Origin: an uncultured Pseudomonadota bacterium
GTDB lineage: Bacteria > Myxococcota_A > UBA796 > GCA-2862545
Assembly (NCBI GenBank): GCA_913061235.1
Contig: CAJXTB010000003.1
Span: forward strand, 248,001 to 312,000
Length of the DNA stretch: 64,000 nucleotides
Direction of reading: 5' to 3'
Below the pieces are notes generated by a model, which searched no databases, had not been told where the DNA came from, and worked only from the letters and a program-made list of their open reading frames with translations. A program made the translations under genes and the position numbers. This document shows, piece by piece, positions 10,797 to 58,217 of the stretch. How positions within the stretch are numbered: the first letter of the stretch is position 1; each line of letters opens with the position of its first letter.

Positions 10797-13700
10797 ATGC
10801 CCGTAAAAATCACGTGCCCCCACTGCGGCGTGAAGAATGCACTGACACAGCCTCTGCCACTTCCAGGCAGCCAGATCCAGTGCGTCGACTGTGTCGCTCG
10901 CCTGGCTATTTCATACCCACCGGGTGTGATGGAGGCGCTGAAAGGCCGAGGAAAAGCGTTTCAAGACCGGATTACCGGTTTCACACCGCCTCCGCCCAAG
11001 CGTCGCCCGCCGGAGCCCCGCCGCAGCGCGTGGCTAGGCTTCATGGGCGAGTCAGCACCGCCTACTGAAGAACCTCCAGAAGAGGACGGACTGTCACCCG
11101 AAGAGCAGTCCGCCATTGCAGACGCGCAAGAGCAGGCACAGCGAAGCGCAGCAGCAGCCGGTGGTTCGCAACGTCGCATCCTATCGAGCCTAGACGCCGG
11201 TCGACGCCTTGCCGGTCCTCACCCGAGCGCTGCGGTTCAACTGTACGTAGACAAGCTGGTGGGTTGGGTAGACGAAGCCGGCAACTACGCAGACAGCGCC
11301 CGCGACGCACTCGCCCGCACCCGCACTGCCAGCGTCGTGTCCGATGCCACCGATGCTGCGGATGACGCCGCAACCTGCGCAAAGAACGCCAGCGCCGTTC
11401 AAGATCGAGCACAGCGCGCCATCGAACAAATTCGAGCCGGAGTTGCAGCCCAAGAAACCACGCGTGCGGCTGACGAATCGGCAGAAGCCGCTCGCATCGA
11501 AGAAGCTGCACGCATCGAAGAAGCTGCACGCATCGAAGAAGCTGCACGCATCGAAGAAGCCGCCCGCATCGAAGAAGCCGCCCGCATCGAAGAAGCTGCC
11601 CGAATCGAAGAAGCTGCCCGCAGCCAAGAAGCCGCTCGCAGCCAAGAAGCCGCTCGTAGCCAAGAAGCTGCGAGAGCCCAAGAAGCTGCGAGAGCCCAAG
11701 AAGCCGCACGTGCCGAAGACGCACTGCGTGCCGAGCAACAAGAACGCGAAGAGAGCGCACGCGCTGCATTGGCTGCACAGGCAGAGCGAGAACGCATTGA
11801 CGCTGAACAACGCGCCGCCGAGCGCGCACGCCAAGAGGAGCTGGAGCGCCGCCAGGCTGAGGCCGAGGAGCGCGCACGTAAGCTCCAAGCCGAACAAGAA
11901 GAAGCTCGCCAAGCCGCAGAAGCAATCGCCGCTATCGGGGCACGCGCAAAGGTCGCTGTAGCCGAAGCCAACGAAGCTACCCAGCGCATCCAACAGCAAC
12001 TAACGACGGTCGAAAACGCCATCAGTGAGGCCAACGCAACGTCCTCTTCGGTCGGTTTCTCGGTCGACCAGATTCGCCTTGCATTGACCGACGCACAGGC
12101 CGCGACCCAGGGGCTCACTACTGCTGGGGAGTCGCTCAGCTCGACCGCGGAAGCCGACACCTTCGCCCGAAGAGCGGATGTGGCGCGGATTACTGCCAAT
12201 GCCGCCGAATCTCGTGCAGACGCTGCAGTTCACGCCGCCAACAGGGCCATTTCCGCCGTGTTGGAAGAACGCGAGCGTGAAGCCGCAGGTATTGCCGCCG
12301 CCATCGCAGACGCACAGGCCGCCTGTGCCAGCGTAGACGCCACCACCGCGACTGTAGAGAAAGCCGTCACGGACGGACGCGCGACTGCCGGAACTGCAGA
12401 CGCTCCAACAGTACGCCAGGCCCTCGCCCAACTAGTCCGCACGGGAACTCGGGTGTCGCAGAGCCAAGCTCGCGCCCATGAAGCCCTCGCCCGCGCCCAA
12501 GCTGCAACAGACGTCAGCACTGCACGTGCCGCCAGTGAAGATGCCCGTCGAGAGGCCTATGGCGCCACAACAGCCGCCGAGATGGTCGACGACGCTACGG
12601 AGAGCCTCGACGAAGCCGTCGCACAAGCGCTCACGCAACAGCAGAGCGCACAAGCCGAGCTCGACCGTCGCCTCGCGAGCATTTCCCAGCGCGCCTCTGA
12701 CGCCGCTGAGCTCGCCGCTCGAACTCGGGCCACCTTGCCGGACATGCGCAAGCGCGTGCCAACAGACGCGAACGATGCCACATACGCCGCACTCGACGAC
12801 GCCGAAGCCGCCGTCGCAGAGCTTGCAGAAGTAGCGGAGAAGGCCCACGCGAGCACACTGGCGGCAACAACGCTGGACGATGCAGAGGCCGCCCTCGGTC
12901 GCGCCGAGCACTGCCGCGATGAAACCGTTCGCCACGTTCGTGACGCACGCGACGTCGTCGACGCCGCTGTCGAGCAGAAGGCTGCCCGCCAACGTCAGGC
13001 CGTCACCGAGCAACGACTCGCTCAGGCCCGCAGTCGCGCCGAGCACACCGCCAAAGACGCCGAAGAACGCCTAGCCGCAGCACACGACCGCTTCGCGGAA
13101 TGGAACGATGACGCAGACGGCGAGCGCGTTCGCGTGGCGCTGACACGTGTGGCCCAAGCCGCCGCAGACGCGCGCACTGCCGCAGATGCTGCCGTGCTGT
13201 CCACGTCACCAGAAGAAGCCGAAGAACACGCCACCGAGGCTTCTCACAGTCTCTCTCTCACCCTCGAACACCTCGCTGAAGTGGCCCGTGAATCCACGCT
13301 GGCAGAGCGCGCTCGAGAAGACCGAATTGCAGACGAACAAGCGCGTATCGCCCGTGTCGCAGCAGACGCCGCCGCGGAAGCGGACCGTGTCGCACGTGCC
13401 CGAGACGCAGAATCGGAACGCATGGCCATCGCCGTTGAGCATGCCGTTGCGTCCCATACCGCGATTCAGCACGCCATTGCCGGCCTCTCGCAGCTTGACG
13501 CCTACACGGCAGAAGCCGACGCCACGCTACACGAAGTGCAGAACGCCCAGACTGCAGATGATGCCGAATCCGCCGCCGATGAGATTGCCAGCATCCTGGC
13601 AGATGCAAAGCATGCTGCCGCCCAAGTCCGCGCACGGCTCGAGCAGCAGGCCAACCAGCAAGAGGCCGCCGGTCACGCACAACGCGCAGCTATCGGTCAC

Positions 13701-16700
13701 GAGAGTGCCGTGGCCCTTGTGCACGCACTGCGACATGAAGCAGGCGTTCCCCCACATGACGGCGTGCTTGGCGCCGCAATGGCCCGCGTTGACAGCGCCC
13801 TCGCTCTCGTCGCAGATGCCGCACAGACCGCTCAGACCGAGTCCAGCCAGGCGCTGAGTCATCCAGTCGAGTCTGCCTTCCACGTCACCGGTGCATCGCT
13901 TGCAGCCACCCGTGCAGACGGCGCCCAACATGCCCTAAACGCAACGGTGGATGCCGCCCGCGACATCCTTCGTTTAGGCCAAGAAGCTGCGGAAGAACGC
14001 CAACGTGCCGCACTGGCTGCCACACGAGCAGACGAAGAAGCCGCGACTGCTGCCGCCGCCCAAGTAGCGCTCCAACAGGCCCAGGCAGCCATGCAGGTCA
14101 GCGCCGCAGATGCCGAACTGCGTCCCCTCATTCAGCGTCTTGAGCGAGCCAGAGGCCGTGCCGAAGCCCTCGGTGAACGCGCAGAAGCTCTCGTGGACCA
14201 TACCGAGCACATCGCCTCCGACAGCCATGCCCCAGCGGTCATGGATGCCATGGGCCCCCTACTCCACACCTACGAACAACTTCGTGGCCACGTCGACGCC
14301 GCACAGCGCACCGTAGAGCCGTCAGAAGCCGCTGCCATAGACGCTGAGAACGCTGCCGCCGACGCACGCGAGCTCTTGGCCGTGCTCGAAGCCGACGCAC
14401 GGGCTGTCACAGTGGCACTCCAGAGCAGCCAAGAAGAGCGCCAGGTTGAACAGCCAGACGAGCACCACGATGCGCCGCAAGACGACATACAGGCTGTCGA
14501 AGAAGCCATCGAGCGCGCGCGGGCCGCTGCCGAAGACGCGCAACAGCTCGTAGTCGCTCTAGACCAACAGATCCGGGCCGACAACGTCTCAGCACCAGGC
14601 GCCCTCGACGCCTTCGCCAATGCATCACGGGCCGCCGACCGCTCCGCAGCTGCCGCCCAGCGCGCAACCCAGATGACCTCTGCCGCAGATGCCGACGCTG
14701 CCGCCCTGGAAGCGACAGACGCTGCGTTCCAGGTACGCGCCGAAGCCGAAGCCGCACACGCCGCCATTGCTGTAGAAGTGGGCGGTCGTGAACATGAGAT
14801 GGCGGCGCTGACCCGAGCTCGCGCCGCAGCCCAACAAGCCGCCTACAGCGCACGTGTGCACGCCCAACAAGCGAGCCGAATTGCCCGCTCGGTAGAGCAA
14901 GAGACGGTCGACGACAACGAAGCAGTTGCCCAGGCACGCACGCGCGTCGCAGAGCTCGCCGCACAGGTCGCTTTTGCCGCTGAACGCGCGGACTTTGCCT
15001 GCTCCGAGGCTGAGCAAACCACCGACCTAGCCATCGCTACTGGTGCCCAAGCTGCCGCAGAAGACGCAGCCCGTGAAGCCGAAGGTGCGTTGCTGTCCCT
15101 GGAGTCCGCAGATGACACCCTGGCGGACATCATCGGTGGTGCACTTGCCCCCATTCCGGTCCACCGTCCGGCCGCTGAAGCGAGATCCGCGACCATCACC
15201 CCCCATCGCGCTGACCGTGTCGACGCGGCACCGCTGGCACCCGTGCCCATCGCCGCACCGCTTCCGGCGCCGGCGCCACAGCCGGCACCAGCGCCCCAAC
15301 CCGCGCCAGCCCCCCAGGTTATCGCGAACGCTCCGACACCTCCCAGCGCAGTCCAGGCCGACCCCCCAAAGAAAAAGGGCCGCATTCGCCGCGTTCTCGG
15401 CATGATGTTCATGCTGTTGGTCATCATCACCGTCATCCTCGTGATCGGTGGCGGCATTGGTGGGTACTTTGGGTACAACCACTACGCAGCTGAGCTCCCG
15501 ACAGTCGACGCCCTCCAGACCTATCGGCCCCCGACCGTCACCACTGTGTACGACCACGAAGGTGAGCTGCTCGGCGAGATCTACGAAGAGCGTCGCTACG
15601 TCACCGAGCTGGAGGAAATGCCGGAGCACCTGCAGCAAGCCTTCACGTCATCCGAAGACAAGGCGTTCTGGGAACACGGCGGCGTCAACTGGATTGGCCT
15701 CGTACGCGCCATGAGTGTGCTCATCACCACCGGTGAAAAGAGCCAGGGTGCCTCAACGATTACCATGCAGGTCACGCGAAACTTCTTGCTCACCCGAGAC
15801 AAGACGTACGAGCGGAAGATCAAGGAAATCATCCTCGCGCAGAGAATCGAAGAGGTCTACGACAAGGAGCGCATCCTCTACTTGTACCTCAACGAGCTGT
15901 ACTTGGGCTCTGGAGCCTACGGCGTCGAAGCCGCAGCGCGCACCTACTTTGGTAAGCATGTCGGTGAGCTGACCCTCGCAGAGTCCGCCATGATCGCGGG
16001 CCTTGCGCCGGCACCGTCCACCTACAGCCCACACCAGAACTTCGACAAGGCCAAGGTTCGCCAGGGCTACGTCCTGGGACGCATGCTCGAAGACGGCCAC
16101 ATCAGCCAGTCCGAGCATGACGACGCCATGGACGAGCAGATGGTCATCGTTGAGCGCAGCAACGAGTTCTTGGAGAAGTCGCCATACTTCACCGAGCACG
16201 TCCGTCGGCACATCGTAGACACCTACGGTCACGAACGCGTCTACAACGAGGGCCTCTCGGTCACCACGACCTGCGACCTGGACCTACAAGGGGTCGCACA
16301 GGCCGCTGTCCGCAAGGGCGTAGACGAAGTCGACCAGCGCATGGGCTTCCGCCGTGTGGGTCTCGAGAACATCTCTCAAGGTCAGATTGCCGAACGCACT
16401 GCCGCGCTTGAGACCGAGATGATCGACGCATGGGTGCTCATGAACGACCCCTCCGGTCAGCAACCTCGCCCTGCAACCTCAACTTTGGAAGAAGGTGAGC
16501 AATACACGGGCGTTCTGACCGAAGTCACGCGCAACCACGCCACTGTCCAGATCGGTTCCCACCAAGCCATCATTCCGATTGCCTGGAGCCGTTGGGTCTT
16601 TAAGCCCGACCACACCCGGTCTTGGCGTAGCCGGTCACAGAACGACCTGACCCAGCAGATCACCTGGGAGCTTCCCTTGCCGGAAGATGCTCCGGAAGAC

Positions 16701-18077
16701 GCCGAGCCCGAGACCGAGACTGGCGCCATTCTGCAGGTAGGCGACGTGGTCTTGGTCAAGGTCATGGCCTTGTCCACGCAAGACGAAGAAGTCGCCTCAG
16801 ACTTCCGCAACACCCCCGGTGCTGACACTTCCTTGGTCGCTGCTCACCTGTGGCAGCGCAACGAAGTCGATGCAGCGCTGCTGTCCTACGACCTCGAATC
16901 CGGCGCTGTCCGCGCCATGGTCGGGGGCGCCGACTTCGGTGACAGTGAGTTCAACCGCGCAACGCAAGCCATGCGCCAAGTGGGCTCGACCTTCAAGCCT
17001 ATCGTGTACGCCGCAGCCATTGAGTCCGAGCGCGTCACCGCTGCGACCATGGTCACCGACGGTCCCCTCGCCTTCGCGACCGGTGCGGACTTCATCTGGA
17101 AGCCGGGCAACTACTCCAACAGCTACCTAGGCAACATGACGCTGCGCAAGGCCCTGGCCATGTCGCGCAACACCTGCACCATCCGAGTCCTCGACCGCGT
17201 GGACCCTGGAATGAATGACGACATCGTGTACGACTTTGTTCGTCGCCTAGGCATCGGTGGTCCGCCCACCCACAGCCTACCCGAAGACTGGATTGCGACG
17301 CCGGACAACGACCACGCCTGCCCGTGGATTCGAGAAGAGGCCGACTTTACCGTGTGTACCGACCGGTACCCACCCATGCCCGAAGGCCTGACAGACCGCG
17401 AACACCGCGCACAGCTGACCGATGACAGCGACTATCGCTGCCGCGCCTGCGACCTGTCCATGGGCCTTGGCTCCCGCTCGCTCACCATGGAAGAGCTCAT
17501 GCGGGCGTACAGCACCTTCGCGACGGGCGGCACCATGATTGAGCCGTACTACATCGAAGAGGTCCGCGACCGCGACGGCAACGTGCTCGAGAGCCACGCA
17601 GCGCTCCCACCGGTCCAGGTCCTCGACCCCGCCGTCGCCTACATCACCACATGGCTGATGGAAGGCGTTGTTCAAGGCGGAACCGCCGGTCGCGCCGCAC
17701 GACTCGGCCTGCACTTGGCCGGTAAGACAGGAACCACCAATGACGAGAAGGACATGTGGTTCATCGGCTTCAACCCTGAAGTCATCACTTCCGTGTACGT
17801 CGGGTACGACCAGCCTCGCTCCCTCGGCGTCTCGTCGACCGGTGGCCGCACCGCTCTGCCGATTTGGATGGAGTACATGGCGGTCGCTGTGCCCCCCGAA
17901 CGCGACTACGCATTCCCGGTGACAGGCGACATTGAATGGGCAAATATCGAAGAGTCAACCGGTCGCCGAGTGACCGCCGGCGGACGCCGATTCCCATTCT
18001 TGCGTGGCACGGTACCCGAGAGCACGGGTATCAGTGCCGGCCAAGTCAGCATCGATGACATTCAGACGGAACTGTAA
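10797..18077 (+). CDS. Giant zinc-ribbon/Ala-rich helical protein fused to class A penicillin-binding protein (PBP1A-like)
   Basis: This is a single uninterrupted frame of 2,426 residues. Residues 1-40 form a CxxC-x(20)-CxxC zinc ribbon like MJ0042 types (CPHCGVKN...CVDC). Residues 60-100 are Pro/Glu-rich. Residues 100-1450 are almost entirely Ala/Glu/Arg/Asp/Gln helical sequence with coiled-coil character, including thirteen tandem 6-residue units. A Pro/Ala linker (1450-1525) precedes one membrane helix (about 1530-1556). Then comes a GT51 glycosyltransferase with catalytic Glu in SSEDKAFWEHGG (about E1620) and STITMQVTRNF, an OB-like insert, and a transpeptidase with GSTFKP (S2064), SRNTC and KTGTT (K2310). 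The C-terminal 870 residues alone match a complete PBP1A that polymerises and crosslinks peptidoglycan in the periplasm. The 1,500-residue N-terminus should be cytoplasmic. The ATG at 10797 starts the zinc ribbon; the frame stays open to 10200 only antisense to the S41 gene. Confidence 0.9.
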   Translation: MPVKITCPHCGVKNALTQPLPLPGSQIQCVDCVARLAISYPPGVMEALKGRGKAFQDRITGFTPPPPKRRPPEPRRSAWLGFMGESAPPTEEPPEEDGLSPEEQSAIADAQEQAQRSAAAAGGSQRRILSSLDAGRRLAGPHPSAAVQLYVDKLVGWVDEAGNYADSARDALARTRTASVVSDATDAADDAATCAKNASAVQDRAQRAIEQIRAGVAAQETTRAADESAEAARIEEAARIEEAARIEEAARIEEAARIEEAARIEEAARIEEAARSQEAARSQEAARSQEAARAQEAARAQEAARAEDALRAEQQEREESARAALAAQAERERIDAEQRAAERARQEELERRQAEAEERARKLQAEQEEARQAAEAIAAIGARAKVAVAEANEATQRIQQQLTTVENAISEANATSSSVGFSVDQIRLALTDAQAATQGLTTAGESLSSTAEADTFARRADVARITANAAESRADAAVHAANRAISAVLEEREREAAGIAAAIADAQAACASVDATTATVEKAVTDGRATAGTADAPTVRQALAQLVRTGTRVSQSQARAHEALARAQAATDVSTARAASEDARREAYGATTAAEMVDDATESLDEAVAQALTQQQSAQAELDRRLASISQRASDAAELAARTRATLPDMRKRVPTDANDATYAALDDAEAAVAELAEVAEKAHASTLAATTLDDAEAALGRAEHCRDETVRHVRDARDVVDAAVEQKAARQRQAVTEQRLAQARSRAEHTAKDAEERLAAAHDRFAEWNDDADGERVRVALTRVAQAAADARTAADAAVLSTSPEEAEEHATEASHSLSLTLEHLAEVARESTLAERAREDRIADEQARIARVAADAAAEADRVARARDAESERMAIAVEHAVASHTAIQHAIAGLSQLDAYTAEADATLHEVQNAQTADDAESAADEIASILADAKHAAAQVRARLEQQANQQEAAGHAQRAAIGHESAVALVHALRHEAGVPPHDGVLGAAMARVDSALALVADAAQTAQTESSQALSHPVESAFHVTGASLAATRADGAQHALNATVDAARDILRLGQEAAEERQRAALAATRADEEAATAAAAQVALQQAQAAMQVSAADAELRPLIQRLERARGRAEALGERAEALVDHTEHIASDSHAPAVMDAMGPLLHTYEQLRGHVDAAQRTVEPSEAAAIDAENAAADARELLAVLEADARAVTVALQSSQEERQVEQPDEHHDAPQDDIQAVEEAIERARAAAEDAQQLVVALDQQIRADNVSAPGALDAFANASRAADRSAAAAQRATQMTSAADADAAALEATDAAFQVRAEAEAAHAAIAVEVGGREHEMAALTRARAAAQQAAYSARVHAQQASRIARSVEQETVDDNEAVAQARTRVAELAAQVAFAAERADFACSEAEQTTDLAIATGAQAAAEDAAREAEGALLSLESADDTLADIIGGALAPIPVHRPAAEARSATITPHRADRVDAAPLAPVPIAAPLPAPAPQPAPAPQPAPAPQVIANAPTPPSAVQADPPKKKGRIRRVLGMMFMLLVIITVILVIGGGIGGYFGYNHYAAELPTVDALQTYRPPTVTTVYDHEGELLGEIYEERRYVTELEEMPEHLQQAFTSSEDKAFWEHGGVNWIGLVRAMSVLITTGEKSQGASTITMQVTRNFLLTRDKTYERKIKEIILAQRIEEVYDKERILYLYLNELYLGSGAYGVEAAARTYFGKHVGELTLAESAMIAGLAPAPSTYSPHQNFDKAKVRQGYVLGRMLEDGHISQSEHDDAMDEQMVIVERSNEFLEKSPYFTEHVRRHIVDTYGHERVYNEGLSVTTTCDLDLQGVAQAAVRKGVDEVDQRMGFRRVGLENISQGQIAERTAALETEMIDAWVLMNDPSGQQPRPATSTLEEGEQYTGVLTEVTRNHATVQIGSHQAIIPIAWSRWVFKPDHTRSWRSRSQNDLTQQITWELPLPEDAPEDAEPETETGAILQVGDVVLVKVMALSTQDEEVASDFRNTPGADTSLVAAHLWQRNEVDAALLSYDLESGAVRAMVGGADFGDSEFNRATQAMRQVGSTFKPIVYAAAIESERVTAATMVTDGPLAFATGADFIWKPGNYSNSYLGNMTLRKALAMSRNTCTIRVLDRVDPGMNDDIVYDFVRRLGIGGPPTHSLPEDWIATPDNDHACPWIREEADFTVCTDRYPPMPEGLTDREHRAQLTDDSDYRCRACDLSMGLGSRSLTMEELMRAYSTFATGGTMIEPYYIEEVRDRDGNVLESHAALPPVQVLDPAVAYITTWLMEGVVQGGTAGRAARLGLHLAGKTGTTNDEKDMWFIGFNPEVITSVYVGYDQPRSLGVSSTGGRTALPIWMEYMAVAVPPERDYAFPVTGDIEWANIEESTGRRVTAGGRRFPFLRGTVPESTGISAGQVSIDDIQTEL
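11487..11720 (+). repeat. 13 tandem copies of an 18-nt unit encoding AARxxE hexapeptides
   Basis: Within the giant PBP gene, thirteen consecutive 18-nt units encode AARIEE (seven copies), AARSQE (three), AARAQE (two) and AARAED (one). Neighbouring units are near-identical at DNA level, including third positions, indicating recent expansion by slippage or unequal exchange. Because 18 is a multiple of 3, copy-number change keeps the frame. The 6-residue period differs from a 7-residue coiled-coil heptad and with its E/R pattern could form a stable single helix. Confidence 0.95.
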
Positions 18078-18078
18078 A

Positions 18079-18582
18079 ATGCGACCCCTCGTGGCTTTGA
18101 TGCCGCTCCAAGCTCTACCATTTCTCCTGTCGTCACTGCTGTTTGCAGCGTGTGGCTCGGGGTCCGCAACCTTCGAGCAGTGCGAGCTAGACCTCGAATC
18201 CGACGTCGATGTGGTCATGCCTGGCGATACCCTGGTGTTGACCGGCGGTCCGCAGAGTGAGCGCTTTGACACGGTTGTCCGAATTGGCGACGTCCAGGCA
18301 GATGTCCTTGACGTCTCCCGTCAGAATTGCTCGATTTGCGATGAGTGTCGCCAACAGCAATGTGTCACTCTGTGCCGTTCTTGCTCCCAGTGTGCGCCGT
18401 CGTGTGACACCTGTGAAGAAGAACTGACAGTTATGATCCCAGAACTTGCTGCCGGTCCAGCCGACCTCGTGGTGACCAACCGATTTGGTATTTCTTCCCC
18501 CCTGCCCGTGAACGTGGACGTTCCAGACGACACCGACACGGACGTAGACTCCGACACTGATTCCGATACGCTCGCAAACTAG
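18079..18582 (+). CDS. Lipoprotein with IPT/TIG-like fold and a nine-cysteine insertion
   Basis: The protein has 167 residues with a signal peptide and lipobox (LLFAAC-GSG). The body reads like one IPT/TIG immunoglobulin-like domain (DVVMPGDTLVLTGG at the start, ELAAGPADLVVTNRFGISSP at the end). Between these strands lies a cluster of nine cysteines in about 30 residues (CSICDEC...CVTLC.SC..C...CDTC). The tail is an Asp/Thr-rich stretch (DDTDTDVDSDTDSDT) also found in other lipoproteins of this window. The ATG is one base after the stop of the PBP gene, so the two are probably translated from one mRNA. It should sit in the outer membrane or periplasm; whether the cysteines bind metal or form disulfides is unknown. 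Confidence 0.75.
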   Translation: MRPLVALMPLQALPFLLSSLLFAACGSGSATFEQCELDLESDVDVVMPGDTLVLTGGPQSERFDTVVRIGDVQADVLDVSRQNCSICDECRQQQCVTLCRSCSQCAPSCDTCEEELTVMIPELAAGPADLVVTNRFGISSPLPVNVDVPDDTDTDVDSDTDSDTLAN

Positions 18583-24975: not shown

Positions 24976-25014
24976 GTGTATCGGTTACGGATCACTTCCA
25001 CTCAGGAGGCCCTT

Positions 25015-25728
25015 ATGTGGCTGATTGCGCTAACGACCTTCGCCTTCGCTGACGCTCCGACCGTAGACGGTGACGCCCTACGGCGAGCCACCGAGTTGCC
25101 CATTTCCGCGGCACGCGTGCGGGAACTCGGTACATCGACGGACCAAGTCCGGGAGGCTCTACAAGCATCCAGAACCAGCGATGCGGACCCAGGTGACACC
25201 GCCGACATGTTCAAGGAAACAGCCGATGCTGTCGAAGAACATGGTCCTGTCGACAACTTCGGCTCGTTCGTACGAGAACGCCTCTCTGAAGGTTTGCGCG
25301 GGCGTGAGCTCGCCGCATCGATTCGGGCGGAACACCAGGCCCATGGCAAAGGTCGCCCTGACCATGCTGGGGCTGGCGGCCGAGGCCACTCCACAGACGG
25401 CGCGCAGCCTGGAGGAGCACGCGGTTCGGAGACACAGGACCGCGCCCAATCAGGCGGGCGCGCTGATGGGGCACACGGTTCACCGCAAGCAGGGGGTGCC
25501 CATTCAGGCGGACGCCCAGACTCTGCAGGGGGTGCCCAATCAGGCGGGCGCCCAGACTCTGCAGGCGGTCCCCAATCAGGTGGGCGTCAATCCGGTGACA
25601 CTCCCGCACATGGCGATTCTACCCACGAGCGCCCAACTCCCACCACCGAGGGGACAGAGTCGGGCAGCACGCAATCCACAGAACGGGGCCGCGGCATGAC
25701 GCGTCCAGAACGAGGTAACAACCGATGA
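25015..25728 (+). CDS. Secreted protein with Gly/Ser/Gln/Arg low-complexity C-terminus
   Basis: The protein has 237 residues. The ATG follows a perfect AGGAGG (25004-25009). A short signal peptide (MWLIALTTFAFA-DAP) is followed by about 100 residues of acidic helical sequence and then a disordered tail rich in G, S, Q, H and R. The tail contains a 12-residue tandem repeat (GGAQSGGRPDSA) encoded by a 36-nt DNA repeat near 25496-25570. No family is recognised. The stop overlaps the next gene by four bases (ATGA), so the two are probably co-translated. Confidence 0.6.
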   Translation: MWLIALTTFAFADAPTVDGDALRRATELPISAARVRELGTSTDQVREALQASRTSDADPGDTADMFKETADAVEEHGPVDNFGSFVRERLSEGLRGRELAASIRAEHQAHGKGRPDHAGAGGRGHSTDGAQPGGARGSETQDRAQSGGRADGAHGSPQAGGAHSGGRPDSAGGAQSGGRPDSAGGPQSGGRQSGDTPAHGDSTHERPTPTTEGTESGSTQSTERGRGMTRPERGNNR

Positions 25729-30332: not shown

Positions 30333-31361
30333 ATGTTCAGCGCAGTCCTTGGGCTTTTTAGCCAGGATCTCGCGGTAGATCTCGGTACATCCGAGACGCG
30401 AATCCACCAACGTGGCACCGGTCTGGTATGCCGCGAACCTTCCGTGATTGCAGTCCATACGGACCGCAACGGTCACCGTCGTGTGGCCGCTGTTGGCTCG
30501 GAGGCTGTTCCCATGATCGGGCGCACACCCGCCGATCTTCAAGCGGTGCAGCCCGTTCAACATGGGCATGTTGTCGACTTTGAGGTCGCTGAGGCCTTGC
30601 TGACGCATCTGGTCCGTCAAGTCCACGGCCGGAACCAGTGGGTTGCTCCCAAGATGGTCTTGGCCACCCCATGGGGTGCCACGGACATGGAGCGCCGAGC
30701 GCTTCGTGAGAGCTGTGAGACATCGGGGGCACGCGTCGTACACATGGTGGACCGTCCGCTTGCTGCGGCATTCGGAGCCGACCTGCCCGTGGAGAAGGCA
30801 ACCGGCAACTTGGTCGTCGACCTTGGCGCTGGAGAGGCGTCCATCGCGCTGATGTCACTGTGCAAGGTTGTGGCACACCAATCGGTTCCAGGGGGTGGCA
30901 ACGCCGTTGACATCGCCATCATGCGCATGGTGCGCGACCGCTACAACCTAACCATTGGCCGCTCTACCGCAGAGCGCCTGAAGCTAGAGTTGGCCGACGC
31001 CAGCGGACGCGGCGACAAAAAGACCAGTGAAGCCAAGGGACGCTGCGGACTCGCAGGCATTCCTCGCGCCGTCACTGTGACTGGAGCCGACATTGCCGAC
31101 GCGCTGCAGCGTCCAGTCACCTCCCTTGTTCGCGGTATCCGCGCTGTGTTGGACCGCGTCCCCGCCGAGCTGGCCCGGGACGTCGCTGACCACGGGGTTG
31201 TCCTGGTGGGTGGCGGCGCTCGCCTACGAGGCCTCGAACGGGTCCTTCGTGAGGCCACTGGACTTCCGGTGGTTCGCGCAGAACATCCCGAATCGTGCGT
31301 CATTCACGGTGCCGGACGCATTCTCGACGAGCTCGATCTGCTGGACGCCGTTGCATGCTGA
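30333..31361 (+). CDS. mreB: Rod shape-determining actin homolog MreB (divergent)
   Basis: The protein has 342 residues, normal MreB length (about 345). Actin-fold landmarks are DLAVDLGTSETRI at the N-terminus, REPSVIAVHTD, VDFEVAEALLTHLVRQV, VVDLGAGEASIALMSL, VPGGGNAVDIAIMRM and VLVGGGARLRGLERVL near the C-terminus. The phosphate-2 loop has GAGEAS where canonical MreB has GGGTTE, and phosphate-1 has GTSET in place of GTANT, so nucleotide handling may be changed. It would form membrane filaments guiding side-wall peptidoglycan synthesis. It is first in mreB-mreC-mreD-mrdA-rodA, with its stop overlapping mreC. Confidence 0.9.
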   Translation: MFSAVLGLFSQDLAVDLGTSETRIHQRGTGLVCREPSVIAVHTDRNGHRRVAAVGSEAVPMIGRTPADLQAVQPVQHGHVVDFEVAEALLTHLVRQVHGRNQWVAPKMVLATPWGATDMERRALRESCETSGARVVHMVDRPLAAAFGADLPVEKATGNLVVDLGAGEASIALMSLCKVVAHQSVPGGGNAVDIAIMRMVRDRYNLTIGRSTAERLKLELADASGRGDKKTSEAKGRCGLAGIPRAVTVTGADIADALQRPVTSLVRGIRAVLDRVPAELARDVADHGVVLVGGGARLRGLERVLREATGLPVVRAEHPESCVIHGAGRILDELDLLDAVAC

Positions 31362-32257
31362 ACCCAAAGCGGACGTTCACACCACGCAAGCCGGGATTCA
31401 CGCCGGCCCCCCTGCCCCTGCGTCGTAAACCTACGCTTGTGCCTGTTGAGGAGCCCACACCGACCCGTCGCTTCACGGTGCTTCGACGAGCCCTCGCATT
31501 CGCTCTGGTCGTCGGCCTCTCGGTCGCTGTCGTTGCGTCCGCAAGCGGAACCCAAGCCTTCAAGTCGGCCACCGCAGGCGCACAAGAGTGGTTCGCGGTC
31601 CAGTCCGCAACCGCCGTCCAAGGGTGGGACCGTCATCTGGCCCAAGGCAAAGTGGTCGACCAGCTCGCTGCGATGACGCGTGAGCGAGACGCCCTTGCGC
31701 TTGAGGTCATGGAGCTACGCGCCGTTCAGCGCGAACACGGCCGTCTTGTCACCCTGTTGGACATGGCTGAAGGCCAAGGGCTCACCGGTGTGGCCGGACG
31801 GGTCATCGCTCGCCCCACAACCGGACGGGCCACCCTGCGCATCGACTCTGGCAGTGTTGTCGGCGTGGCGCTTGGCCAAGCGGTCGTCGCACACGATGGC
31901 CTCATTGGACAAGTCGTGGACGTTGGCCCCGAGTGGGCCGATGTTCTGCTCGCACGCGACCCACTGCACAGCGCGGCTGTTGTTGTGGAAGGCACCGAGG
32001 TTCACGGAACTCTACGCGGTACCGGCACTGACTTGCTCGTTGACCACGTTATTGCCGGCACCGACGTCCAACCTGGCGCTATCGTGCTCACAAGCGGAGA
32101 AGGCGACGTCTTCCCGATTGGAATCACCGTCGGAACGGTCGAGTACGTCTCCCGGTCTACCGGTCCACTTCTGCACATTGAAGTGACGCCAGCCTCGCGT
32201 CCGGCGCTACTGGCCGAAGTGTTCGTGGTTCGCCACCAACAGGCGCCAGAGCTGTGA
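31355..32257 (+). CDS. mreC: Rod shape-determining protein MreC
   Basis: The protein has 300 residues. A basic cytoplasmic tail is followed by one membrane helix (ALAFALVVGLSVAVVASAS), a coiled coil (QLAAMTRERDALALEVMEL) and the MreC beta domain (GRVIARPTTGRATLRIDSG, VGVALGQAVVAHDGLIGQV, LLVDHVIAG, VLTSGEGDVFPIGITVG). This matches the family throughout. It links MreB filaments to periplasmic PBP2 in the elongasome. The ATG overlaps the mreB stop by 7 bp, and mreD starts at its stop (GTGA). Confidence 0.93.
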   Translation: MLNPKRTFTPRKPGFTPAPLPLRRKPTLVPVEEPTPTRRFTVLRRALAFALVVGLSVAVVASASGTQAFKSATAGAQEWFAVQSATAVQGWDRHLAQGKVVDQLAAMTRERDALALEVMELRAVQREHGRLVTLLDMAEGQGLTGVAGRVIARPTTGRATLRIDSGSVVGVALGQAVVAHDGLIGQVVDVGPEWADVLLARDPLHSAAVVVEGTEVHGTLRGTGTDLLVDHVIAGTDVQPGAIVLTSGEGDVFPIGITVGTVEYVSRSTGPLLHIEVTPASRPALLAEVFVVRHQQAPEL

Positions 32258-32694
32258 TTCTCGGCGCTGCCCTCGCCGCACTTGCTTGGCTCGTCGCATC
32301 GGCGTCGGGACTCCCCATCGATCCGTTCCTACCTGTGGTTATCGCCCTTGGTCTACACCGTGAGTGGCCCAACTGGGCACGCGTTGTCCTCGCCATTGCG
32401 TTGGCCCCTCTCGCCGCAGCCGCCTGCGGAGATGTCGCAGCAGAGCGGGTTGCGGTCTACGCTGTAGCGGTGATGGGCTCGGTCAATCTGTCCGACTGGT
32501 TCGACGACGGTGTCGTCACCCGAACAGGGTTCGCCGCCTGCGCATTGACCGCTGTGTTGGTCGTGCGCGAGGTCATGCACTGGGCTGGCTCCATGCCACA
32601 GGGCAGTGACTCGCTCGTGTCCATCGCCGCGACCGTTGCATGGGTCGCTATCCACGCAGCCCTGTGCCTAGTGCTTGCTCGGAGGCGGCCATGA
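32254..32694 (+). CDS. mreD: MreD-like membrane protein
   Basis: The product has 146 residues with GTG start overlapping mreC's stop. It is a small polytopic membrane protein with four or five hydrophobic helices, and sequence similarity to MreD is weak, as is normal for that family. The call rests mainly on size, topology and position between mreC and mrdA. Its stop overlaps the mrdA ATG. Confidence 0.8.
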   Translation: MILGAALAALAWLVASASGLPIDPFLPVVIALGLHREWPNWARVVLAIALAPLAAAACGDVAAERVAVYAVAVMGSVNLSDWFDDGVVTRTGFAACALTAVLVVREVMHWAGSMPQGSDSLVSIAATVAWVAIHAALCLVLARRRP

Positions 32695-34562
32695 ACACGA
32701 TTGGAACCAGGCTTCCGTGGTTAGCAGGCATCATGGTTCTCGGATTTGTCGCCCTACAAGCGCGACTCGCCACGCTGCACTTGGACGCATCCGTCTCTGC
32801 CGTCGCGGTCGACAATGCGCTGAGCACCCGCCGACTCGATGCCCCACGCGGCCGAATCCTAGACCGCCGTGGCGAGATTCTCGCAGACGTCCGCCCGACC
32901 ATCGATCTACGAATTCGTCCTCACTATGTTGAGGACACCGAAGCTCTGCGTCTCACCCTGATGCCACGCCTGTCCGAGGCAGAGCTCGAGCGCTACGACG
33001 ACGCCATGCTCTCTGAAGGCTGGGACAGACGACGCGCATGGGTCATTGCACCCGACGTAGACCGGGCGACGCGCGCTTGGGTCTCTGGCAACCGCCCATT
33101 CTTAGCGGGCGTTGACTTGGGTGCCTCGCAACAGCGCGAATACCCCCTCGGCGGAATCGCCCCTCACGCGATTGGCTACGTCGCAGAAGTGACCGGGGAC
33201 GACCTTCTTCGCCTGGACCGCAGCCGATACCGTGCCGGGGATTACACCGGTCGCCAGGGTATTGAACGGCTCTTAGAAGATGAGCTCCGAGGCGTACCCG
33301 GCATTGATGCCACGCTCACCACATCTGTCGGGGGCCGGGCTCGCGGCTCTGGGCCGTGGTTTGACCGCCTCACCACGCTGGCCAACAACTGGGACGTGCC
33401 GGTTCGTGGCGGCGGCGACATCACACTGACTCTCGACCAGAACCTTCAGGCCGTCGCTGAAGCCTCAATGGACGACCGCCGCGGCGCTGTCGTGATGATG
33501 GACATCCACAGTGGTGCAGTGCTCGCCTACGTCTCCAGCCCAGACTTTGAGCCGGGCGAGCTGGTCGACGGGATCAGCCGTTCCCAATGGCGCGGCCTGA
33601 TCGGTGACCCTGCAAATCCGCTGATGGACCGCGTGTCCCGCGGCCTGTACCCACCCGCCTCTACGTTCAAGATGGTGACAGCTGCGGCTGCCCTTGAAGC
33701 CGGCATCTCCGAGAACCACACGGTTCGCTGCACCGGCCGCACCCAGATCGGAAACCGGAGCTTCAAGTGCTGGAAGCGCGGCGGACACGGCATCGTCAAC
33801 CTATCGAGCGCTCTTGCAGGTTCCTGTGACGCTTGGTTTTACGACGTCGGTATCGAGGTAGGCCATGTCGCTATTGCCGACGCCGCTCGTCGACTCGGCT
33901 TTGGCTCCCGGACCGGTCTCGCCCTCAATGGCGAGCGCGCAGGGCTGCTTCCATCCGATTCGTGGATGCGCGAGCGCCACGGAACGCCCTGGACCATGGG
34001 AGACACAGCCAGTGCCGCCATCGGCCAGAGCATCACCCAGACCACGCCACTGCAGCTCGCTGTGATGACGTCGACCATCGCCGCTGGAGGCATGCGTCCG
34101 TCGCCCTACATCGTTGAGTCTGTGACCCGTCCCGACGGCACCACTGCCCGAATTGGCGGCCAGCGGGCGGCTGTTGACTCTGGTTTCTCGCCGGAGATCT
34201 GGGCGGCCATCCAAGCCGGTATGGAGCGTGTGGTTGACCGCGGAACCGGTCGTGGCGTGCGAACCGAGGGACTGCCGATGGCGGGCAAGACGGGCACCGC
34301 ACAGGTGGTCAGCGGCGCGCTCAAGAAACTGCGTCCGGGCTACGACACAGAAGACCACGCATTGTTCGTCGCATATGCCCCGACAGAAGACCCCCAGGTC
34401 GCCATCTCCGTCATTGTTGAGCATGCCGGTGGTGGCAGCACGCACGCAGCGCCTGTCGCACGCGATGTCCTAGTCGCCTGGGCCATTGGCGAAGGTATTC
34501 TACCAGACCCCGAGATTCTGCTGGAAGAAGCAGAGGTTGCAGACGCGGGAGTCCAGCCATGA
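32691..34562 (+). CDS. mrdA: Penicillin-binding protein 2, elongation transpeptidase
   Basis: The protein has 623 residues with GGAGG before the ATG. One membrane helix (LPWLAGIMVLGFVALQARL) is followed by the PBP dimerisation domain (DAPRGRILDRRGEILAD) and the transpeptidase domain with PASTFKMVTA (active Ser), SCDAWFYDVG (SxN-type motif) and MAGKTGTAQ (KTG). It crosslinks peptidoglycan in side-wall growth with RodA and MreC. Stop and start overlap rodA by 4 bp. Confidence 0.95.
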   Translation: MNTIGTRLPWLAGIMVLGFVALQARLATLHLDASVSAVAVDNALSTRRLDAPRGRILDRRGEILADVRPTIDLRIRPHYVEDTEALRLTLMPRLSEAELERYDDAMLSEGWDRRRAWVIAPDVDRATRAWVSGNRPFLAGVDLGASQQREYPLGGIAPHAIGYVAEVTGDDLLRLDRSRYRAGDYTGRQGIERLLEDELRGVPGIDATLTTSVGGRARGSGPWFDRLTTLANNWDVPVRGGGDITLTLDQNLQAVAEASMDDRRGAVVMMDIHSGAVLAYVSSPDFEPGELVDGISRSQWRGLIGDPANPLMDRVSRGLYPPASTFKMVTAAAALEAGISENHTVRCTGRTQIGNRSFKCWKRGGHGIVNLSSALAGSCDAWFYDVGIEVGHVAIADAARRLGFGSRTGLALNGERAGLLPSDSWMRERHGTPWTMGDTASAAIGQSITQTTPLQLAVMTSTIAAGGMRPSPYIVESVTRPDGTTARIGGQRAAVDSGFSPEIWAAIQAGMERVVDRGTGRGVRTEGLPMAGKTGTAQVVSGALKKLRPGYDTEDHALFVAYAPTEDPQVAISVIVEHAGGGSTHAAPVARDVLVAWAIGEGILPDPEILLEEAEVADAGVQP

Positions 34563-35689
34563 AGCCCTGGATTCCACTGGCGATTGCGGCACTCGCTACC
34601 GGAGTAGGCCTCGCGAACCTGGCCTCTGCGAGCGCCGGACTCAACGGCGAACTCGGCCGCGCGTTCAATACCCAAGCCGTCAGCGCTCTGGTTGCCATTG
34701 GTGTTGGACTTGCAGCAAGCCGCGTGTCTCTGGACACCTACAAGCGCCTAGCCCTGCCCGCATGGGCCATTGGCTGCGCTGGACTCGTCGTCGTGCTCAT
34801 TATGGGTGCTGTCGGCGGTGGCGCGCGCTCGTGGCTCCTTCTCGGCGGAAGCAGCTTTCAGCCTTCCGAGGCCATGAAGGTCTTGGTCCCGCTGGCACTT
34901 GCAGCTGAGCTGTCGACGCCACGCCACTCCAAGGTGACCCGTGTCCTCGTGGTCTCCGCGCTCATCAACATTCCAGTGGCTCTCATTGGCATGCAGCCCG
35001 ACATGGGTGCGGTGATGCTCATCACCCTGGGCTCCGCGACCATTCTGTGGCTGGCCGGCCTAAAGACGCGCTGGTTTGTAGGCGCCGGAGTCGCAGGACT
35101 TCTCGCCGCACCGATTGCCTGGGCCAGCTTGTTTCCGTACCAACAAGAGCGCATTCTCACCTTCTTGGACCCCATGCGCGACCCCTCGGGAAGCGGCTAC
35201 CAAACCCTACAGAGCCAGTATGCAGTGGCCGCCGGGGGCTGGAAAGGAACGGGCTGGTTCGCTGGAACACAAGGCCGTCTGGGCTTCCTACCCGAGCACG
35301 AGACCGACTTCATCTTGGCCGTACTTGCTGAAGAATGGGGTGTGGCCGGTGCAAGCGTGGCATTGGTCTTGCTCTTCGCGCTTGTGTTCGTTGGGCTGTA
35401 TATCGCCGGCAAGACCAAGCATCGCTTCACCGCTCTGCTCGCTGCGGGCCTTGGTGGGCAGCTGTTCTGGCAGGTCTTGGTCAACGCCGGCGGCGTACTC
35501 GGTATTGTTCCGCTGACCGGCGTTACCCTGCCGTTCTTGTCACGCGGCGGCAGTAGCCTGTTGATTGCCTGGGCCACGATTGGGCTGCTCATGGCTTGTG
35601 CCGGCACCCTGGGCCATGGACGCGCCTTGCTACGTGACCCCGTCGCAATGCGATTGGTACGACGCCCCGCAAAACCTGCCGCTTCTTAG
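34559..35689 (+). CDS. rodA: RodA peptidoglycan polymerase (SEDS family)
   Basis: The protein has 376 residues with about ten membrane segments. Family features are GGGARSWLLLGGSSFQPSEAMK, QPDMGAVMLITL, the catalytic loop region LDPMRDPSGSGYQTLQSQYAV, GWFAGTQGRLGFLPEHETDFI, and GVTLPFLSRGGSSLL. It is the glycan polymerase partner of PBP2. It closes the mre operon, and the next gene converges on it across a palindromic repeat. Confidence 0.96.
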   Translation: MKPWIPLAIAALATGVGLANLASASAGLNGELGRAFNTQAVSALVAIGVGLAASRVSLDTYKRLALPAWAIGCAGLVVVLIMGAVGGGARSWLLLGGSSFQPSEAMKVLVPLALAAELSTPRHSKVTRVLVVSALINIPVALIGMQPDMGAVMLITLGSATILWLAGLKTRWFVGAGVAGLLAAPIAWASLFPYQQERILTFLDPMRDPSGSGYQTLQSQYAVAAGGWKGTGWFAGTQGRLGFLPEHETDFILAVLAEEWGVAGASVALVLLFALVFVGLYIAGKTKHRFTALLAAGLGGQLFWQVLVNAGGVLGIVPLTGVTLPFLSRGGSSLLIAWATIGLLMACAGTLGHGRALLRDPVAMRLVRRPAKPAAS

Positions 35690-38480: not shown

Positions 38481-40265
38481 GTGGCGAACGGTCCTTACCA
38501 TTGGCCTACAGACCCCGCGATTGTCGGTGGTCAGGGCGAGATTCGGTTCGGCATAGATGCGGATGGTGAGGCGGTTGCGCTGAAGCTTGCGTCTGCCAAC
38601 AAGTCTGCAAAAGAGGCGTTGCGCCGCGAAATCAACGTACTCAAAGCACTCGAGAAGGCCAACGTTCCCAATGTTGTCCGCGTGCTGCAGCAGGTCGACC
38701 ACGGCGGACGTCCGGGCATGGTGATGCCTCGCTACACAAATACCCTCCGGGATTGGATCGACGTGATTCTAGCGGAACCCGATGCCGATACGCTGGCGTT
38801 GGTGTTGGTCCGCTGTCGCACCCTAGCGACCGCACTGGCCGGGGTTCACAAGGTCAAGCTCGAAGACGGTGGTGCGCTGGTACACCGCGACATCAAGCCT
38901 GAGAACATCTTGATGGACGCCCATGGCCAAGTCTACCTAGCGGACTTCGGCGGTGCGCTCGCTGTCGACGGTCTAGCCGCAGTGGAGATGGGCTTGTTCG
39001 GAACGCCCATGTGGGCACCCTTCGACCAGATCCTCCCCGGTCTGGCGATTCCCGACCCCACCTGGGACACCTACGCGCTGTGCGTGATTCTGTATGCCTG
39101 CGTGACCGGTGCGCGACCAGCCTACCAAGCGGACCCACGGGAACTCCTGAGTGAGCAAGGGCTCAAGCTCTGGGACGTCGCCAAGCTGGCCATTCACGCA
39201 GACGGCGACCACCAACGCACGCTTCGGGTGGAGTTTGCTCTCGAGCGCCAAGGCACGTCGGCGGAAGACTTAGTCTCCATGACCGGTCGCAGCGCCTTGA
39301 ATGACGCCGACCGCCGCGTCTTGATGGAAGGCGTCGACCGCCTTGCGGCATTGGCACAGGTTCCAGACGACCAAATCCAGCGTCTCAAGAGAGGCATCTG
39401 GGGAGTGCTGGTCCGCGGGCTGTCTCCCCTGTCGCATCCGTCTCCCCCCAACCGCTACAGGGACGGTGCAGAGCTCGCTGATGCCCTACAGGACTTGTAC
39501 CGTCTCGCCTTTGACAACGGCCCCAAGACCGACATTCTCGCCGGCCCAGCCCCCGCCCCTGACGTCTTCATCAATGCGTCTGAGCCCCCAAAGAACACCG
39601 AGTCTGGCACTCCCTTGCTCGTCTTGGGCATTGTGGTCGTGGCAGCTGTTGCACTCATCGTCGGTGGCGCGAGCCTGTTGACCCGCCTGTCCAAGCCGGA
39701 CGCCACCGTGCCAATACCGGCGAGCACCGTCACACTCGATGGCTTGGACGTTCGTGTTCCCCCCTTCCTTCTCGACCGCGATGAAGTCTCGCGCCAAGAC
39801 TGGATGCGCTGCGTAGACGCTGGGCAGTGCGTTGTGCCGACCATCACCGGAAGCCCCGATGACCCCGTAGCTGGGCTCAGCTTCGACGACGCGCTTGCCT
39901 ACTGCGAGTTCATCGGAGCGCGCGTGCCCAGCGAAGTGGAGTGGCATGCCGCGGCCGGCTCGGACTTGTACCCATGGGGCGCTGACTCGCCTACGTGCAA
40001 CCACGCGATTGCCGCCGGCTGCTCCGATGTACCGTTGCCTCCGGGTAGCGCACGTCTCGGAGCGACCGCAAATGGCGTGAACGACATGGCTGGAAACGTG
40101 TGGGAGTGGGCATGGATTGGCAAAGGTGGTGACCGAGGCGTACTGCTCGGCGGCTCCGTCCACAGTCCGGCCTCTGAGCTAGGACGCCGCGCCCGCCTAC
40201 TCCCCAGTCGCGACGCACTGCCAGAGCTGGCCGGCGTTCGTTGTGCCTATGACGCGCCCGGATAG
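38481..40265 (+). CDS. Membrane-spanning Ser/Thr protein kinase fused to periplasmic FGE-sulfatase (SUMF1-like) domain
   Basis: The protein has 594 residues with a GTG start. The N-terminal kinase has ALKLAS (ATP Lys), HRDIKPEN (catalytic loop, D137) and ADFGG (Mg-binding D155), then an APE-like APF. A single membrane helix (about 378-400) leads to a C-terminal FGE/SUMF1 domain (LDRDEVSRQDWMRC, RVPSEVEWHAAAGSDLYPWG, NDMAGNVWEW, GVRCAYD). The kinase should be cytoplasmic and the FGE-like domain periplasmic. FGE domains without catalytic cysteines often serve as ligand or carbohydrate-binding modules, and no clear catalytic Cys is seen. So the protein may sense an envelope signal and phosphorylate cytoplasmic targets. 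Confidence 0.9.
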   Translation: MANGPYHWPTDPAIVGGQGEIRFGIDADGEAVALKLASANKSAKEALRREINVLKALEKANVPNVVRVLQQVDHGGRPGMVMPRYTNTLRDWIDVILAEPDADTLALVLVRCRTLATALAGVHKVKLEDGGALVHRDIKPENILMDAHGQVYLADFGGALAVDGLAAVEMGLFGTPMWAPFDQILPGLAIPDPTWDTYALCVILYACVTGARPAYQADPRELLSEQGLKLWDVAKLAIHADGDHQRTLRVEFALERQGTSAEDLVSMTGRSALNDADRRVLMEGVDRLAALAQVPDDQIQRLKRGIWGVLVRGLSPLSHPSPPNRYRDGAELADALQDLYRLAFDNGPKTDILAGPAPAPDVFINASEPPKNTESGTPLLVLGIVVVAAVALIVGGASLLTRLSKPDATVPIPASTVTLDGLDVRVPPFLLDRDEVSRQDWMRCVDAGQCVVPTITGSPDDPVAGLSFDDALAYCEFIGARVPSEVEWHAAAGSDLYPWGADSPTCNHAIAAGCSDVPLPPGSARLGATANGVNDMAGNVWEWAWIGKGGDRGVLLGGSVHSPASELGRRARLLPSRDALPELAGVRCAYDAPG

Positions 40266-45880: not shown

Positions 45881-45972
45881 AGGGTCGTATGTATCCAGTA
45901 GGCCTGCCAAAAGCTGTCCGCCTGCAACACACCTGCAGCGCAGATCCACTCGATTCACGCTACGATGCCGCC

Positions 45973-57300: not shown

Positions 57301-58093
57301 AGATGCGCGCGTCTACATCATCACAGTCGTCTGCGCTGACGGTGGTCCCATCGGGCTGTTCACAGGCTCGAACGGGGAAGAAGGCGCCGCCGTAGCCGTC
57401 AGCGTCTCGGTCAATATAGTAGACGGTGGTGCTGGTCAGGTCCAGGCTAGGGTCCGCGTCGTCCATCAGTTCGTTGCAGTCGTCATCAATGCCGTTGCAG
57501 CGCTCTGGAGCGCCGGGAAACACGTCGGCATCGGTGTCATCACAGTCGTCGACCTCTAGGACGTAGCCATCTGGCGTGCTGCACGACTCAATGCCCACGC
57601 TGACGCTGGAGGCATGCCCGTCTCCGTCTGCGTCTTCGTAGAACAACCGGGCACTGGCGGAGACAAGGTCCGAGTCCTCCTGGTCGACCAAGCCATCACA
57701 GTCATCATCGCGGTCATTGCAGACTTCGTTAGCGCCAGGGAAGATGGCGGCGTTGACGTCATCACAGTCCGTGGACTCGGCCACAGCGCCAGTCGGTGCA
57801 GAACAGGCGCGCAGCGGGGTTGGGGTTCCAGCCTCGCCATCCCCATCGAGGTCTACGAACCACTCGGTCGCATCGGACGCGTCGTCTCCGTCGATGACAC
57901 CATTGCAGTCGTCGTCGATGCCGTTGCACGTTTCCTCTGCGCCGGGAAACACGTTTGCATCAGCGTCATTGCAGTCCAAGGACAGCGCGAACCCGTCGCC
58001 ATCCGCGTCTTCAGTCACGTCATACGCCACGATGGTGTCGCGCTTGCACGCCCCCATCAACAAGACCAAGGTCATCAAACCAATCGAACGCAT
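54377..58093 (-). CDS. Giant MopE-repeat lipoprotein with beta-helix and fibronectin-type domain
   Basis: The protein has 1,238 residues from an ATG giving a lipobox (LVLLMGAC-KRD). Ten consecutive MopE-type repeats follow, each of about 65-70 residues (DCxD...PGAEExCNGIDDDCxG and a spacer with DADGDGYG). A parallel right-handed beta-helix region comes next (LTIEPCTRILMAADATLQVEGTLIAQG and later VVIQGDEGPYVRK, LFARNDGNGATLG). A C-terminal fibronectin type III-like domain (VPSDVQAVSDGSELTVSWSAV) completes it. It should be anchored in the outer membrane and extend outward. The Asp-rich loops suggest calcium binding by analogy. Confidence 0.88.
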   Translation of the reverse strand: MRSIGLMTLVLLMGACKRDTIVAYDVTEDADGDGFALSLDCNDADANVFPGAEETCNGIDDDCNGVIDGDDASDATEWFVDLDGDGEAGTPTPLRACSAPTGAVAESTDCDDVNAAIFPGANEVCNDRDDDCDGLVDQEDSDLVSASARLFYEDADGDGHASSVSVGIESCSTPDGYVLEVDDCDDTDADVFPGAPERCNGIDDDCNELMDDADPSLDLTSTTVYYIDRDADGYGGAFFPVRACEQPDGTTVSADDCDDVDARIYPGATEVCDGRDNDCDGAMDDADDEMDLSTASAWYADADNDGYGDALASAVMACAAPAMTVDNNADCADDNAAISPSASEICNGVDDDCDSRTDDTDPSLDAESATRWWADRDNDGVGGTFFSIISCEQPSGMVEPSGDCEDDNASVSPAIAEVCNGIDDNCNFFIDDEDGDLDLTSGEEWFADADGDGWGSGTDSVFACLAPEGFGTDQNDCQDDDPAISPDAEEVCNGIDDDCDGDVDDADDGLAAEGASYFRDNDGDGYGTPDTYACMDFGFGWTDTLGDCDDNASDRFPGAEERCNYRDDDCDEEVDEDPVDGSSYYTDGDFDGYGAGEAVLACRGEFGVVDQDGDCDDTSNRARPGLTEICDGIDNNCDGVVDLDTPNLPEWFVDADEDGYGLDGSGVLACNSFDGRASVDGDCDDTTADVGPGNDEVDDDGLDNDCDGNVDVPDPLTGGLITEDITWGTGAPGSYELDFNALVDIGVTLTIEPCTRILMAADATLQVEGTLIAQGTEECPIVFTSAAQEPERGDWSRLFFTSTHIPGVVDGTDAYVSGSILEHVVVEYGGSVSGGVVIQGDEGPYVRKLTVRESQGSGVVFEGATWRVRELTSTDNGGAGLLAQARGVIVPVFDSLFARNDGNGATLGAGGNPGQGFPIQRNRFVGNAQRGLLLSGGWSGVPFDVSDNWFEGNGGIGLASNPAADGDYSRNIFVGNGGGASIGYSGQHTHEDTIYADNSGRSFYSNGGRHDMLGVQFIRANTAMAFGNRATVSLTDSLVQDSTDANAWVGLIPTQADPVTSSVNGVSFVGAPQGSFLDIAYRAGSGRVDLTGNYWDGENPNTNAWVFLDFIDLASLAVGDASGFLTSPNPDAPISVPSDVQAVSDGSELTVSWSAVPDSDVASYRVHYGLERDGWQMTGDSASEGATGFTVAGTSATLSGLELSQPWRITVTAVDSDADGVDDLYEGHESWFSLVVEP

Positions 58094-58217
58094 CAATACC
58101 GCCTGCAGAGAGTGCGGTGAAGGATACTGATCTGAAGGGCAATGGCAAGCGCCATTCCTGACCAGCGCCCAACTGGTGTACCCTCGCGGCCCTCCCCCTC
58201 CCTCCGCGAGACTGCTC

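Follow-up and report, generated by a model that had tools for sequence, protein, structure and literature searches.

The placement and control of class A penicillin-binding proteins (PBPs) from the cytoplasmic side are best studied in Firmicutes, through GpsB and EzrA, and in mycobacteria, through PonA1. GpsB binds cytoplasmic mini-domains of PBPs (PMC6335420), the mycobacterial class A PBP PonA1 carries a long, unconserved cytoplasmic tail that slows or modulates elongation and is regulated by phosphorylation (PMC4483258), and EzrA is a membrane-anchored cytoplasmic rod of triple-helical bundles of about 100 residues each, called spectrin-like on the basis of 1.9-2.6 Å over >70% of a repeat (PMC4243239; PDB 4uy3). 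PBP1A-type class A PBPs (TIGR02074; PDB 4oon, 5u2g) have a short tail. In the window, that is, the whole stretch of 64,000 nucleotides that we analyzed, we find a PBP1A with the same transmembrane helix, GT51 domain, transpeptidase and full set of active motifs, but with about 1,530 cytoplasmic residues and a putative zinc-ribbon head. Compared to the phosphorylation-regulated tail of PonA1, it has this head and a predicted array of bundles; compared to EzrA, a separate protein in which an N-terminal transmembrane helix comes before the repeats, the array precedes the transmembrane helix and is part of the synthase itself. A sequence-only reading of this locus had held that PBP1A tails are usually short, which needs qualifying in view of the long tail of PonA1, but the length seen here is still extreme despite that precedent.

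The gene and its synthase part

The giant-arm ribbon-PBP1A gene is real and unusual. It is a single open frame of 2,426 codons with an ATG start and no internal stop (Table 1), and frame, domain and motif analyses bear out the sequence-only reading in that this unbroken frame holds a CxxC/CxxC ribbon, a long helical part and a complete PBP1A. By its GC3, the whole frame looks coding, with values of 0.53-0.71 for the arm, 0.71-0.83 for most of the PBP part, 0.67 for the last 26 codons of that part and 0.67-0.77 for the neighboring genes.

Profile searches matched the GT51 domain with an E-value of 1.6e-61 and the transpeptidase with 4.9e-28, the PBP_1a_fam model TIGR02074 scored 554 bits, above its cut-off of 509, and among solved PBP1A structures 4oon was matched at 4.5e-119. 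Every catalytic motif that we sought is present (EDKAFWEH at residue 1620, GAST at 1651, LYLNE at 1696, STFK at 2064, SRN at 2123 and KTGT at 2310). With GT51, SxxK, SxN and KTG, the PBP part is by its sequence a class A PBP, for which enzyme activity is predicted. Hydropathy gives a single transmembrane segment, at about residues 1528-1560, with KKKGRIRR on its N-side; by the positive-inside rule, this places the long part in the cytoplasm, where the sequence-only reading had put it as well.

Table 1. Parts of the ribbon-PBP1A gene and its downstream neighbor (positions in the window)
Feature	Position	Strand	Basis
Zinc-ribbon / helical-arm / PBP1A protein, 2,426 aa	10797..18077	+	Open frame, domain matches
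Residues 1-58, conserved two-CxxC putative zinc-ribbon head	10797..10970	+	Alignment, 17 sequences; motif CPxC...PLPLPG...CxxC...YPxGV...RGKxF
Residues 59-127, Pro/Glu-rich segment	10971..11177	+	Composition
Residues 128-218, putative first helical unit U0	11178..11450	+	Borders inferred from sequence
Residues 219-376, Ala/Glu/Arg single-alpha-helix-like segment	11451..11924	+	Charge-pair count against shuffles
18-bp tandem repeat, about 10-12 copies, codes ARIEEA/ARSQEA hexads	11483..11710	+	DNA repeat
Residues 377-1436, nine tandem three-helix units U1-U9 (predicted)	11925..15104	+	AlphaFold, motif against block shuffles
Residues 1104-1440, U7-U9, nine helices in three bundles (predicted)	14106..15116	+	AlphaFold, mean pLDDT 84.6
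Residues 1441-1527, Pro/Ala-rich hinge preceding the membrane	15117..15377	+	Sequence, composition
Residues 1528-1560, transmembrane helix	15378..15476	+	Hydropathy
Residues 1589-1763, GT51 glycosyltransferase	15561..16085	+	Domain match
Residues 2031-2341, transpeptidase	16887..17819	+	Domain match, motifs
Small Cys-rich lipoprotein, neighbor gene	18079..18582	+	Kept beside ribbon-PBP1A gene in 6 relatives

Ribbon-PBP1A across the class

The PBP1A part has clear orthologues within the same family and order, with full-length family members at 51-60% identity. Each of 17 other full-length orthologues consists of a ribbon head, then a linker, a membrane helix and PBP1A, and this common order indicates that the joining is not due to chance. 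The head is present in 65 of the 71 class genomes (31 of the 32 high-quality ones), mostly as one copy per genome. Some of its matches lie in short frames, many of which are probably cut by contig ends; across the 71 genomes all head-matched frames have at most 1,455 residues, except that of the window (2,657 from stop to stop). No convincing match to the head was found beyond the class in 237 genomes of the phylum, where hits of 25-30 bits are at the level of generic ribbons. On the basis of these sequence comparisons, ribbon, linker and PBP1A are one ancestral gene architecture of the class, the novelty being confined to the growth of the linker into helix. The locus had been taken for a novel joining of two genes, a claim that the 17 orthologues and the 65 genomes overturn; a two-gene fusion is rejected, as the orthologues carry both ends within one gene and synteny is kept.

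The cysteine pairs of the head, at residues 7/10 and 29/32, form two CxxC motifs about 20 residues apart, which is the spacing of MJ0042-type ribbons. In an alignment of 17 heads (this one and 16 orthologues), 13 columns are invariant over 58 conserved residues; these include C7, C10, C29 and C32, invariant in all 17 sequences; in two of these, a one-residue gap separates the final pair of cysteines. The four cysteines suggest that the head binds zinc. The head is weakly similar to the ribbons of LysW and AglX, the latter being presumably the same protein as GltJ. Because GltJ acts as an effector of MglA, a GTPase (PMC12288465), the AglX ribbon offers an analogy for the head: like the MJ0042 ribbons (TIGR02098), it is likewise N-terminal with two CxxC motifs, with a similarity that is weak only (PDB 7zok, E 0.038). 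TIGR02098 matches nine of the 17 heads at E-values up to 0.1 (best 1.4e-6) and does not figure in the list of six families given for the copy in the window. Searches with an approximate MglA query found no canonical MglA in the genome; they aligned at 31% identity with an MglA-like domain (L047:1111-2610, plus strand) whose P-loop is degenerate and whose frame has a hydrophobic segment at the C-terminus. As these searches gave just this one divergent relative, we did not adopt an MglA-ribbon pairing in this genome.

Five of six relatives share the order S41/PDZ protease, ribbon-PBP1A, Cys-rich lipoprotein, OMP-like protein, large lipoprotein, (UPRT), PNP and RNase D, and the sixth does so up to the lipoprotein within the 40 kb compared; in most of the six, the conserved order reaches SurA and mreB. 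The S41/PDZ protease gene is divergently transcribed and adjoins the ribbon-PBP1A gene in all six. The gene for the Cys-rich lipoprotein starts one base past the PBP stop and is likewise a neighbor in 6/6 relatives; its product is a candidate Lpo-like activator of PBP1A. Of the two strong MreB matches in the genome, one lies in the window together with mreC, PBP2 and rodA (30333-35689, plus strand), 12 kb downstream of PBP1A, and several relatives retain the stretch that runs between PBP1A and mreB. Beside these rod-shape genes, and near them in two relatives, 38481-40265 (plus strand) encodes a Ser/Thr kinase domain with an FGE-sulfatase (formylglycine-enzyme-like) domain. Elsewhere in the window, 54377-58249 (minus strand) and 45889-48222 (plus strand) encode large proteins that resemble lipoproteins and contain numerous Asp/Cys repeats of the type DxDxDG...DCDD...PGAxExCNGxDDDCDG, and 24976-25728 (plus strand) is a putative coding frame with Gly/Ser-rich repeats (SGGRPDSAGGAQ) and no Pfam match.

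The linker and its predicted structure

In 13 of the 15 orthologues measured, the linker from head to membrane has 96-230 residues and 12-31% Pro, compared to 1,473 residues and 3% Pro in the window. The other two linkers, of 449 residues in G005 (L010) and 257 in G001 (L015), contain helical-looking Ala-rich stretches. Both orthologues belong to other genera: the one at L010:1006-5187 (minus strand) has a mixed helical-looking stretch of roughly 350 residues, and in the one at L015:979-4578 (minus strand) the tract is of the (KAAAEEAA) type and roughly 170 residues long. In a maximum-likelihood tree built from the PBP parts, the three helical linkers fall into separate lineages and three changes are required; more than one gain of a helical linker is therefore probable, with repeated loss as the alternative. 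Comparison of the arm with the L010 linker scored -8.4, against -22 ± 6.7 in block shuffles. We did not retain a common origin of these two linkers, as the score is only suggestive and the tree separates the three lineages. The arm has no paralogue in the genome, one negligible 17-bit match in the 71 class genomes and none in plasmids, and residues 618-1436 have no sequence match in the PDB.

The helical part spans about residues 128-1436 (about 1,310 residues) between the Pro-rich flanks 59-127 and 1441-1527; residues 116-1475 are 29% Ala, 11% Glu, 10% Arg, 7% Gln and 1.5% Pro (20/1,360). The arm is predicted to consist of a 158-residue salt-bridged helix and about ten spectrin-like three-helix bundles, with a Pro-rich hinge before the membrane. 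The charged helix (219-376), which contains the 18-bp minisatellite and precedes nine of the ten units, has 61 opposite-charge i/i+3,i+4 pairs compared to 30.6 ± 4.5 in shuffles; within the gene, an assembly error would most readily affect how many copies of the 18-bp repeat there are. Beyond residue 376, hydrophobicity has its strongest period at 3.5 residues (z 8.7). The AlphaFold check that the sequence-only reading had called for was run without alignment: over residues 376-1475 (mean pLDDT 59.7), it returned three recurring helices per unit of about 105 residues, and for residues 1104-1440 alone (mean pLDDT 84.6), it returned nine helices that make exactly three units (in fragment numbering, 2-37/43-67/74-114; 125-158/164-188/193-225; 229-265/271-302/308-336). 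Unit borders drawn by eye from the sequence ahead of the models proved to be in close agreement with this U7-U9 model and were then shifted by a few residues, and unit anchors lie 103-151 residues apart, barring the gap spanned by the charged helix. A motif search scored 481.6 on the arm, as against 461 ± 5.6 for block shuffles; the reversed arm reached 468.5, which indicates that general helix periodicity accounts for some of the repeat signal. In leave-one-out HMMs only some units exceed the shuffles; the units are thus alike in predicted structure and highly diverged in sequence.

In Foldseek, where arm comparisons gave E-values of 0.2 or more, the best natural matches to the U7-U9 model were plectin repeats 7-9, beta2-spectrin 14-16 and alpha-spectrin 15-17 (5j1i, 3edv, 1u4q), with nonsignificant E-values of 0.4-0.8. 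In VIA, individual units align with spectrin repeats to 2.0-2.1 Å over 96-97 residues, similar to the values on which EzrA was judged, but with Z of 8.8-9.9, lower than scores that unrelated helical bundles can attain. Spectrin repeats share a helix between units, whereas short loops break two junctions of the arm in the confident model; in the low-confidence model, the helix is continuous at several junctions. EzrA (4uy3), which the arm resembles by prediction, stands at rank 48 of the VIA list for the long model and is not among the best 50 rows for U7-U9, an absence that speaks neither for nor against a likeness, and no EzrA or spectrin model appeared among the Pfam and NCBIfam matches at E 0.1. 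Because no sequence similarity was found, the order of transmembrane helix and repeats is reversed and the structure is predicted only, we do not claim membership of the arm in the EzrA family.

Discussion

In the reading that we prefer, with a probability of about 0.5, the protein is the ribbon-PBP1A of its class, whose linker has grown here into a long, partly rigid helical arm, with the head as a docking element and the arm as a spacer that would position the synthase. The head would dock to a cytoplasmic partner, perhaps a protein of the cytoskeleton, of cell polarity or of precursor synthesis, although our searches turned up no such partner. The linker would set the distance from this partner at which the periplasmic synthase may work. 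By arithmetic, as opposed to measurement, the arm might reach tens of nanometers (about 24 nm for the single helix and perhaps 5 nm for each bundle), so that one docking site could serve a wide membrane patch. The idea of a spacer that positions the synthase, put forward by the sequence-only reading, is upheld as a plausible one, by analogy with GpsB, PonA1 and EzrA. Alternatively, the arm may be a stiff spacer or a force-bearing strut, comparable to the separate spectrin-like rod EzrA that is tied to Gram-positive wall synthesis. The relatives manage with a short disordered linker, and the long arm may therefore not be needed. More speculatively, and less likely than not, the arm could be a spectrin-like strut that consists of about ten bundles, is unrelated to EzrA in origin and stands in cis in a class A PBP, with a ribbon tip that docks to a cytoplasmic organizer; ribbon-PBP1A would then be a class-wide, undescribed form of cytoplasmic control of wall synthesis, in which tether length is the trait that has evolved.

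The main rival to the docking and spacer reading is neutral growth, since nothing conserved is comparable with the arm. An unconstrained linker would have lengthened by repeat slippage and duplication into an Ala-rich helix that tethers the ribbon, its length and bundles being without function. This fits the minisatellite within the gene, the free variation of orthologue linkers in length and composition, the three separate lineages with helical linkers, the GC3 of the arm below that of most of the PBP part and the lack of relatives of the arm. However, about 4 kb of frame have stayed open, the turns are defined, the units are spaced fairly evenly and the bundles are modeled with confidence, all of which is unexpected from random slippage, and we regard neutral growth as rather unlikely, if a serious contender. 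The arm and the synthase could also act apart, either because the chain is cut or because PBP1A is additionally made from an internal start. The divergent S41/PDZ protease gene next door in every relative compared would suit such a scheme; a frame scan, however, found the region between residue 1335 and the transmembrane helix to be devoid of ATG codons, which leaves a free PBP1A without an obvious internal start, and every orthologue read has a single gene. We therefore hold two products to be improbable.

Slightly more improbable still is a cytoskeletal filament, in which the helical part would self-assemble like the coiled coils of FilP and Scy into a network that carries the synthase. The length of the arm, its Ala/Glu/Arg/Gln composition and its 3.5-residue hydrophobic periodicity speak for this idea, which was that of the sequence-only reading, but the models turn every 25-40 residues in most units and show discrete three-helix bundles with short turns, nearest to spectrin repeats, instead of a single long coiled coil, and no coiled-coil filament family was matched in Pfam or NCBIfam. 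An assembly or sequencing artifact that joins two genes, named by the same reading as what would undo its claim, is very improbable: the assembly is a draft, in 72 contigs, and might have lost or gained copies of the 18-bp repeat, but the orthologues show the same two ends in one gene, synteny is unbroken and the frame is open throughout.

A limited search of the literature returned nothing relevant, in titles or abstracts, on a zinc-ribbon PBP or a spectrin-like PBP fusion, and neither the giant arm nor the ribbon-PBP1A common to the class seems to have been described in that literature. Should the arm prove truly spectrin-like, bacteria would have another such case in addition to EzrA, here as a component of the synthase. 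The linkers form a natural series, which runs from about 100 residues rich in Pro up to about 1,470 that are mostly helical and allows a direct test of the effect of tether length, and the class-wide conserved ribbon head on PBP1A provides a new handle on the cytoplasmic control of class A PBPs.
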